64,000 bases of DNA from Pseudooceanicola algae (GTDB lineage: Bacteria > Pseudomonadota > Alphaproteobacteria > Rhodobacterales > Rhodobacteraceae). Below, piece by piece: positions 17,255 through 18,729 of the stretch. A program made the position numbers and the translations under genes. The notes below the pieces were generated by a model. It did no database searches and was not told where the DNA came from. It saw nothing but the letters and a program-made list of their open reading frames with translations. The DNA lies in assembly GCF_003590145.2 (NCBI RefSeq), contig NZ_CP060436.1, positions 3,167,001 through 3,231,000 on the forward strand, given 5' to 3'. How positions within the stretch are numbered: the stretch's first letter is position 1; every line of letters starts with the position of its first letter.

Positions 17255-17284
17255 GGCCCGTACCGCCCGATACCCGAGGATTTC

Positions 17285-17779
17285 ATGACCAAACGCCGCT
17301 GCATCCCCTGGCCCGACAAGCGCCTGCGCTCTGCCGCCATCGAGGTCGAGGAAATCACCCCCGAGATCCACGCGATCTGGCGCGACATGATCGACACGAT
17401 GGAGGCCATGCCCGGTGTCGGCCTGGCCGCGCCGCAGATCGGCGTGATGCTGCAACTGGCGGTCGTCGATGCCTCTGACAAGCGCGGCGAGGCGATCCGG
17501 ATGGCCAATCCGCAGATCCTGCATGCCTCGGTCCAGCCACGCGAACACGAGGAAGCCAGCCCCAACCTGCCCGGCGTTTCGGCCGTGATCTCGCGCCCGC
17601 GGGCGGTGACGGTGCGGTTCCTGAATGGCGAGGGAGAGGTCGAGGAGCGCGATTTCGTCGGCCTCTGGGCGACCTCGGTCCAGCACCAGATCGACCATCT
17701 GGCAGGGCGGATGTATTTTGACCACCTCAGCAAGACCCGGCGCGACATGCTGCTGCGCCGGGCCCGGAAGACGGCCTAG
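17285..17779 (+). CDS. Peptide deformylase-like protein, degenerate active site
   Basis: 164 residues, clearly homologous to the adjacent deformylase: motif 1 GVGLAAPQ (44-51) is intact. Motif 2, EGCLS in active enzymes, is replaced by EASPN, so the cysteine ligand becomes S92. Motif 3 is QHQIDH instead of QHEIDH, so the catalytic glutamate becomes Q135. Loss of both residues argues against normal deformylase activity. The frame is intact, with a ribosome site, and sits between def and fmt, so it is probably a maintained pseudoenzyme rather than a pseudogene. Confidence 0.85.
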
Positions 17780-17799: not shown

Positions 17800-18729
17800 A
17801 TGCGCGTGATCTTCATGGGAACCCCGGATTTCTCGGTCCCGGTGCTGGAGGCCCTGGTTGCGGCAGGCCATGACATCGCGGCGGTCTATTGCCAGCCGCC
17901 CCGCCCCGCGGGGCGCGGCAAGAAGGACCGCCCGACGCCGGTGCATGCCCGCGCGCTCGACCTCGGCCTCCCGGTGCGCCATCCCAAAAGCCTGAAGGGG
18001 GCGGCAGAGCAGCAGGAATTCTCGGCCTTCGGGGCCGATGTGGCGGTGGTCGTCGCCTATGGGCTGATCCTGCCCCAGGCCATTCTGGATGCGCCTGCCA
18101 AGGGTTGCCTGAATATCCACGCCAGTCTGCTGCCGCGCTGGCGCGGCGCGGCGCCGATCCATCGCGCAATCATGGCGGGGGATTCGGAGACCGGCATCTG
18201 TATCATGCAGATGGATGCCGGGCTCGACACCGGCCCGGTGTTGCTGCGCGAAAGCCTTGCCATCGGGCCCGAGGAAACGACCGCCGAACTGCACGACCGC
18301 CTCGCCCCCCTCGGCGCCCGGCTGATCACGCAGGCGCTGGCGCAGCTACCCGATCTAAAAGCCGAGCCCCAGCCCGAAGATGGCGTCACCTATGCCCACA
18401 AGATCGACAAGACCGAAGCGCGGGTGGATTTCACCAAACCGGCGGAGGAAGTCGATCGGCGGATTCGCGGCCTGTCGCCCTTTCCCGGTGCCTGGCTGGA
18501 ATACGAAGGTCAGCGGCTGAAGCTGCTCGCCTCGCGCCGCGTCAACGGCAACGGGCCGCCGGGACGTGTTTTGGACGATGCGCTGACAGTGGCCTGCGGC
18601 ACGGGTGCGGTTCAGATCCTGACGCTGCAAAGGGCGGGCAAGGGACCGCAGGCAGCGGAGGTGTTCCTGCGAGGGGTGCCGATTCCGTCCGGCGCCTGTC
18701 TGGGCGGAAGGGGACCGGAAAAGGCTTGA
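17800..18729 (+). CDS. fmt: Methionyl-tRNA formyltransferase
   Basis: 309 residues, normal length. N-terminal formyltransferase domain with [20 protein letters not shown] (catalytic N/H/D region) and [14 protein letters not shown], then the C-terminal tRNA-binding OB-like domain. It formylates initiator Met-tRNA using 10-formyl-tetrahydrofolate. AGGAG precedes the start. It completes a def / def-like / fmt operon for N-terminal formylation and deformylation. Confidence 0.96.

Follow-up and report, generated by a model that had tools for sequence, protein, structure and literature searches.

Most sampled Rhodobacteraceae keep, beside def, a peptide deformylase paralogue whose altered active site is fixed

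The deformylation of protein N-termini, a textbook step, is essential and serves as a drug target. A gene for a deformylase homologue with an altered active site is present in Pseudooceanicola algae, which belongs to the mostly marine family Rhodobacteraceae. It lies in the 64,000-nt stretch that we analyzed (the window; contig NZ_CP060436.1, positions 3,167,001 to 3,231,000), directly after the peptide deformylase (PDF) gene def (Table 1). An initial annotation, made from the DNA letters, described the product as a deformylase pseudoenzyme kept between def and fmt, and considered a regulator, a binder of formylated peptides or an enzyme with changed chemistry. Is this gene a recent wreck, or is it maintained, and if so, for what? 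In the following, DefC designates the product of the ORF at 17285-17779 and its orthologues, and DefB the middle paralogue of three-gene clusters.

Table 1. Features of the def-defC-fmt region (positions are those of the window)
Feature	Position	Strand	Remarks
def, canonical peptide deformylase, 172 aa	16736-17254	+	motifs GIGLAAPQ / EGCLS / QHEIDH; basic C-terminal tail
Shine-Dalgarno-like GAGGA before DefC	17276-17280	+	4 nt between the end of the core and ATG
DefC, PDF paralogue whose altered active site is fixed, 164 aa	17285-17779	+	ATG to TAG
DefC motif I GVGLAAPQ, kept	17414-17437	+	Gln51 is the counterpart of E. coli Gln50
DefC altered motif II EASPN (canonical EGCLS)	17552-17566	+	metal-ligand Cys replaced by Ser92, following Leu by Pro93
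DefC altered motif III QHQIDH (canonical QHEIDH)	17681-17698	+	both His kept, catalytic Glu replaced by Gln135
DefC C-terminal helix, residues 150-163	17732-17773	+	basic at 152, 153, 159 and 162; probable ribosome-docking element
fmt, methionyl-tRNA formyltransferase	17800-18729	+	profile match

The ORF is intact, its three motifs read exactly as had been described, and a Shine-Dalgarno-like core precedes it. It starts 30 nt downstream of def and ends 20 nt upstream of fmt. In a profile search the product was recovered as a member of PF01327 (E = 2.9e-37, 128.1 bits, cut-off 22.8), and its score of 122.1 bits also exceeds the cut-off of 103.95 for TIGR00079. It is 38% identical to the product of the adjacent def, and these two are the only PF01327 genes in the source genome. 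The nearest named relative among the matches listed is the DefC of Pseudooceanicola sp. HF7 (87% identity). Five AF2 models were calculated for DefC alone, one of which was poor (pLDDT 57.5); the best (pLDDT 92.9, pTM 0.88) superimposes on E. coli PDF (4az4) over 162 residues with Z 26.3 and rmsd 1.6. No structural look-alike outside the PDFs appeared among the best 50 matches listed, which proves nothing.

The altered residues turned out to be fixed. Our alignment comprised 149 distinct DefC, 181 Def and 88 DefB sequences; motif letters were read solely in the 149 distinct DefC, which come from a non-random sample of loci mixing the best matches with the weakest DefC-like genomes. At the position of the metal-ligand Cys there is Ser92 in 148 of 149 DefC, Pro in one and Cys in none, so that motif II is not that of a functional PDF. 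In all 149 the following Leu is replaced by Pro93 and the catalytic Glu by Gln135, the latter abolishing the HExxH of motif III. The exchange of Ala for Met42 immediately before motif I and of the second Cys for Ser131 is found in 148 of 149 sequences each, that of Ile for Leu95 in 146, and the Ser at position 94 is either Asn (132) or Cys (17), with no third residue. Gly89 of the substrate strand, which precedes the metal Cys, has become Ala in 132 of 149 DefC, and this could weaken peptide binding. Other parts of the site were preserved: Gly46, Gln51, Arg104, His134 and His138 are invariant in all 149 sequences, and motif I (G-phi-G-phi-A-A-x-Q) is kept, with G44 in 148 of 149 and the first Ala replaced by Gly in 22 and by Ser in one. 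The single DefC with Pro at the former metal-ligand position (EAPPN, locus L145) retains the Gln and both His.

When all PDF ORFs of 201 loci were considered (repeats included), the two catalytic positions were occupied by C/E in 298, S/Q in 167, A/V in two and P/Q in one; the half-way forms C/Q and S/E were absent from these ORFs. The proposed retention of a pseudoenzyme would have been contradicted by orthologues with intact EGCLS and QHEIDH, as expected from a recent decay. These were sought and none was found among the 149. Recent decay is ruled out by this uniform signature together with the constraint described below, and chance, sequencing or assembly error by the 149 distinct sequences.

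In the known mechanism of PDF, the metal is liganded by Cys90 and two His, Glu133 acts as the general base, and the backbone NH of Leu91 and Gln50 hold the formyl oxygen. As Pro93 occurs in all 149 DefC, their pocket has one backbone NH less. Set against this chemistry, the substitutions mean that DefC has neither the metal Cys nor the catalytic Glu nor the formyl-holding NH, and the absence of deformylase activity is a well supported conclusion from the sequences. In line with it, Cys90 of the Salmonella PDF is "required for enzyme activity" in the accessible text of PMC7683392, where the exchange of the second Cys for Ser costs approximately half of the activity.

DefC was found in approximately 344 of 395 sampled Rhodobacteraceae genomes (approximately 87%), namely in 343 with a best match of E < 1e-50 (counted by hand) and in one (G377) with a weaker match carrying the DefC motif. 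The 24 weakest genomes passing the 1e-50 threshold were all read and have Ser-Pro (in one case Pro-Pro) together with Gln. Among the 51 genomes in which DefC was not found, 44 have a single PDF match, four have no PDF match and three (G303, G169 and G369) have no DefC-like match; five of the 51 cannot be judged, namely the four without any PDF match and G412, whose single match is a contig-edge fragment. For the single-PDF genomes, 30 of the 44 loci were read; all are canonical, and fmt is located beside 28 of them. Because of these absences we conclude that DefC is dispensable in some lineages. Outside of the family, a class-wide scan of 387 genomes revealed no comparable match in 381 of them (best 7.9e-48); only the six Rhodobacteraceae, the source genome included, pass 1e-50, and the 24 loci read outside of the Rhodobacteraceae are all canonical.

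In a FastTree phylogeny (local supports; the 99-residue fragment L086 was left out), DefC forms one clade of 149 tips with support 1.0 and DefB another with 0.97. With 24 Def of other alphaproteobacterial families as an outgroup, DefC splits off before the Def of the family radiate (0.906) and has a long stem (0.576); long-branch attraction could exaggerate the depth of this split. In a tree built from def+fmt of 149 DefC-bearing and 33 DefC-less loci, eight genomes lacking DefC form a basal clade with weak support (0.57), and the remaining absences are scattered, requiring 13 changes by Fitch parsimony. This pattern is consistent with a single gain close to the root of the family and subsequent losses. 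The most divergent DefC are found in deep lineages of the Rhodobacteraceae, which we counted against a horizontal origin. As judged from these trees, DefC is an ancient, vertically inherited PDF paralogue. Mobile sources were considered and rejected: none of 152 matched records in a phage collection reached 60% identity, none of 89 pattern matches in viral contigs was confirmed, and one of 1004 matched plasmid records fell at 60-80%, on a replicon of 1.58 Mb. This replicon (NZ_CP039965.1, Pseudorhodobacter turbinis), filed as a plasmid, has three PDF places, one of which (1086133-1086612) is a DefC 75% identical to that of the window. Separately, a record titled Nocardioides marinus DP1N28-1, by its name an actinobacterium, harbours a DefC locus of the Rhodobacteraceae type (L116, 77% identical to the window); it is probably a mislabelled or contaminated assembly.

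How constant is the genomic setting? Another PDF gene is located directly upstream of defC on the same strand at all 149 distinct loci, so that defC belongs to a PDF cluster in each of them. The gene fmt follows in 134 of 149 loci with a median gap of 20.5 nt (5-95%: -4 to 681 nt). The location between def and fmt is thus correct for the window, but does not hold for the 15 loci in which fmt was not found downstream (L074, L081, L088, L094, L117, L125, L130 and eight more); several of these are from Salipiger and some are short, and in L015 fmt is on the opposite strand. At 62 of 149 loci, that of the window among them, DefC has no DefB beside it. Where defB is present, it overlaps defC by exactly 4 nt (-4) in 80 of 86 loci, and the same -4 nt overlap joins def and defC in 26 of the 63 loci labelled as lacking defB (62 once L055 is set right; the sole upstream PDF of L055 is a DefB, hence our Def tables have 180 or 181 rows). 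As these overlaps are frequent, translational coupling of defC to another PDF gene is, by gene order, common, while fmt is a looser neighbour. In the window, where defB is missing and 30 nt separate def from defC, the spacing is at the loose end. A Shine-Dalgarno-like core precedes 79 of 149 DefC, which does not speak against coupling.

The constraint on DefC equals that on Def. For pairs with dS < 0.8, the median dN/dS was 0.280 for def and 0.270 for defC (1806 pairs), and in the same 237 pairs it was 0.263 for def, 0.259 for defC and 0.547 for defB; these are NG86 estimates from non-independent pairs and are to be read as relative values only. Mean pairwise protein identities are similar for Def and DefC at the 149 loci (71.4% and 70.3%), and amount to 73.9%, 72.6% and 52.4% for Def, DefC and DefB at the 86 loci with all three. 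By these measures DefC is as constrained as the essential Def. There was no internal stop in DefC among the matches listed. By contrast, three DefB have one (G099:C2:869502-869945, G169:C1:2863-3303 and G298:C2:618859-619299).

The conservation of the pocket was assessed at 21 sites, which were picked according to E. coli numbering once the alignment was known. Among the sites that are invariant in Def, the mean entropy in DefC is 0.15 for the 15 pocket sites versus 0.32 for the 24 others (p = 0.009), and thus the pocket seems to be still in use. On the other hand, the mean entropy of the pocket is higher in DefC than in Def (0.33 versus 0.19) and that of the rest of the protein is not (1.02 versus 1.10), which points to partial relaxation. 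The DefC pocket therefore seems to be partly relaxed with a preserved core, still doing something. A result of 0 in 20,000 for seven "core" sites is circular, as these were picked partly for their conservation, and was not relied on. Ranked by conservation among the 164 sites of DefC, Pro93 is 4th, Gln135 7th and Ser92 22nd. Altogether, it is very probable that DefC is functional and not an ordinary deformylase. The notion of a decaying relic without function, to which the lost canonical motifs and the absence from some lineages could be ascribed, is practically out of the question in view of a dN/dS equal to that of the essential Def, the uniform signature, the lack of internal stops among the matches listed and the retention in approximately 344 of 395 genomes.

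The C-terminus gives a hint as to where DefC may act. The net charge of the tail is at least +4 in 180 of 180 Def and in 149 of 149 DefC, and ranges from +4 to +10 in the 24 outgroup Def. In DefC the basic residues at 152, 153, 159 and 162 are Lys or Arg in 149, 148, 149 and 148 of 149 sequences, respectively, and lie in the helix 150-163 of the AF2 model, so that DefC has the basic C-terminal helix of the ribosome-docking type 1B PDFs. With a median of 18 residues, the DefC tail does not reach the length of the Def tail (23 residues). According to the accessible text of PMC8712518, E. coli PDF uses its C-terminal helix to bind the ribosomal protein L22 and competes with methionine aminopeptidase (MAP), and the C-terminal extension of PDF is reported in that of PMC5591237 to be necessary for activity in vivo. 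By analogy, DefC would dock on L22 at the tunnel exit. DefB differs: its net tail charge is at most +2 in 89 of 89 sequences, with a median of -1 in loci also holding DefC, and its catalytic residues are intact in 87 of 88. In terms of sequence features, the extra copies thus split two properties of Def: DefB keeps the cutting site and DefC the docking tail. With kept catalytic residues, an acidic or neutral tail and a dN/dS about twice that of Def, the DefB of the 86 loci (for example L005, L023 and L028) is perhaps a deformylase that acts off the ribosome.

Based on these observations, we propose that formyl-Met N-termini are held or shielded, but not hydrolyzed, by DefC docked at the tunnel exit, a reading to which we assign a probability of roughly 0.4. 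On one stem, DefC lost the metal-ligand Cys, the catalytic Glu and, according to the PDF mechanism outlined above, the formyl-holding backbone NH. The fold, both metal-binding His, the basic C-terminal helix, the counterpart of Gln50 and the larger part of the methionine pocket were retained. DefC would then occupy the PDF/MAP site beside the tunnel exit, engage formyl-Met N-termini without cutting as a natural substrate holder, and in this way pace or shield deformylation by Def and excision by MAP. The exchange of Glu for Gln is used in the laboratory to trap substrates of metalloproteases. The shorter tail, the partly relaxed pocket, the replacement of Gly89 by Ala and the absence from some genomes count against a holder. 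It is tempting to go further and to regard DefC as a dedicated formyl-Met reader, a substrate trap at the tunnel exit which decides which nascent chains keep the formyl group, or for how long, but this we consider rather doubtful. If it is true, there would be a division of labour between three genes, with Def cutting on the ribosome, DefB cutting off the ribosome and DefC docking without cutting. The choice of the initial annotation between a regulator, a binder and changed chemistry is narrowed, not settled, by the kept docking helix, most of the Met pocket and the upstream PDF neighbour, as far as such features can indicate a role.

The altered residues themselves suggest a different explanation. 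Ser92, His134, Gln135, His138 and Gln51 could form a cluster that binds another metal or none and serves another reaction or a small ligand in the old pocket. The altered residues are among the most conserved sites of DefC, a degree of conservation not required of a plain scaffold; His134 and His138 are present in 149 of 149 sequences, and position 94 is restricted to Asn or Cys (132/17). However, the Pro after the former ligand, invariant in all 149, has removed one backbone NH from the pocket, and the Ser itself is Pro in one genome (L145). To our knowledge, there is no enzyme with a Ser-His-Gln-His-Gln cluster. We regard changed chemistry as unlikely.

The gene order could instead mean that DefC joins Def or DefB in a heteromer, as a subunit without catalytic function. 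In particular, there could be a split deformylase whose active site comes from DefB and whose docking helix comes from DefC. The PDF gene directly upstream in 149 of 149 loci, the exact -4 nt overlap of defB and defC in 80 of 86 and the complementary losses (DefB catalytic in 87 of 88 and without a basic tail in 89 of 89, DefC the reverse) are in line with this. Still, no DefB is present beside DefC in 62 of 149 loci, including the window, and the fast evolution of DefB (dN/dS 0.55), not shared by DefC, would be odd for obligate partners. For Def and DefC, AF2 was run on a read-through fusion and returned two well-folded domains with a pTM of 0.52 and no confident interface; the alignment behind it was shallow (10 fusions and 18 single DefC), which makes this a weak test. 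On balance, a partner subunit is distinctly unlikely.

Could DefC be a true deformylase after all, active in particular circumstances (metal or oxidative stress, for example), as the accessible text of PMC12690207 proposes for type 3 PDFs? It has few oxidizable residues (0 or 1 Cys in 135 of 149 DefC versus 3-5 in 178 of 181 Def), and the fold and most of the pocket are kept. But neither the metal Cys nor the Leu next to it nor the catalytic Glu has survived, and the need of the Salmonella PDF for its Cys90 (PMC7683392, accessible text) speaks against it, so that we consider this improbable. The holding or shielding of formyl-Met N-termini by a docked DefC is the reading that we prefer.

If these conclusions are correct, most of a large family keeps a copy with a dismantled site under the selection of an essential enzyme, while the copy with an intact site drifts. 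The name "peptide deformylase" in Rhodobacteraceae may often denote an activity that is absent, as the DefC of the window passes the TIGR00079 cut-off. Moreover, the split between cutting site and ribosome tail makes the question of why these genes are clustered testable.

The PDF gene cluster as such is already published. According to the accessible text of a 2025 survey (PMC12690207), Rhodobacterales account for 104 of the 145 species in which PDF genes are clustered, 98.1% of the surveyed species of this order have such clusters and 62.5% have three genes, the rationale being called "elusive". DefC is one gene of that cluster; in the present sample, which covers more lineages, it is found in approximately 87% of the genomes (344 of 395), and 44 of 395 have a single PDF match. 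We found no mention of a clade with a fixed altered active site or of the DefB/DefC split in the accessible part of that survey, nor any description of a dead copy or of the split in literature searches in which subscription papers were little covered, so that absence is not proven. In the main texts of a Tn-seq study of R. sphaeroides (PMC5513736) and a proteogenomic study of R. pomeroyi (PMC3305630), nothing was found on these genes. The fixed dead clade and the DefB/DefC split, both as read from the alignments, would be the new part.

Among other accessory PDFs, the type 3 proteins of S. aureus and S. pneumoniae, reported to be inactive (Margolis 2000, 2001, cited in the accessible text of PMC12690207), resemble DefC in their altered motifs and in the presence of an active PDF alongside. 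Type 3 PDFs of T. brucei, also with altered motifs, are reported there to be active, a point against taking DefC as inactive. As far as can be compared by description only, type 3 PDFs are altered in motifs I and II, whereas in DefC motif I is essentially kept and motifs II and III are altered. In our tree with the 24 other alphaproteobacterial Def as the outgroup, DefC is placed next to the Def of its own family. DefB shares the cluster and the protein family with DefC, but differs in its intact catalytic residues (87 of 88), its fast evolution and the lack of a basic tail. The closest known system is the type 1B PDF represented by E. coli Def (PF01327, TIGR00079), with which DefC shares the fold, motif I, both His of motif III, the basic C-terminal helix and, in most loci read, the operon with fmt; it departs from this type by the fixed exchange of the metal Cys for Ser, the next Leu for Pro, the second Cys for Ser and the catalytic Glu for Gln.
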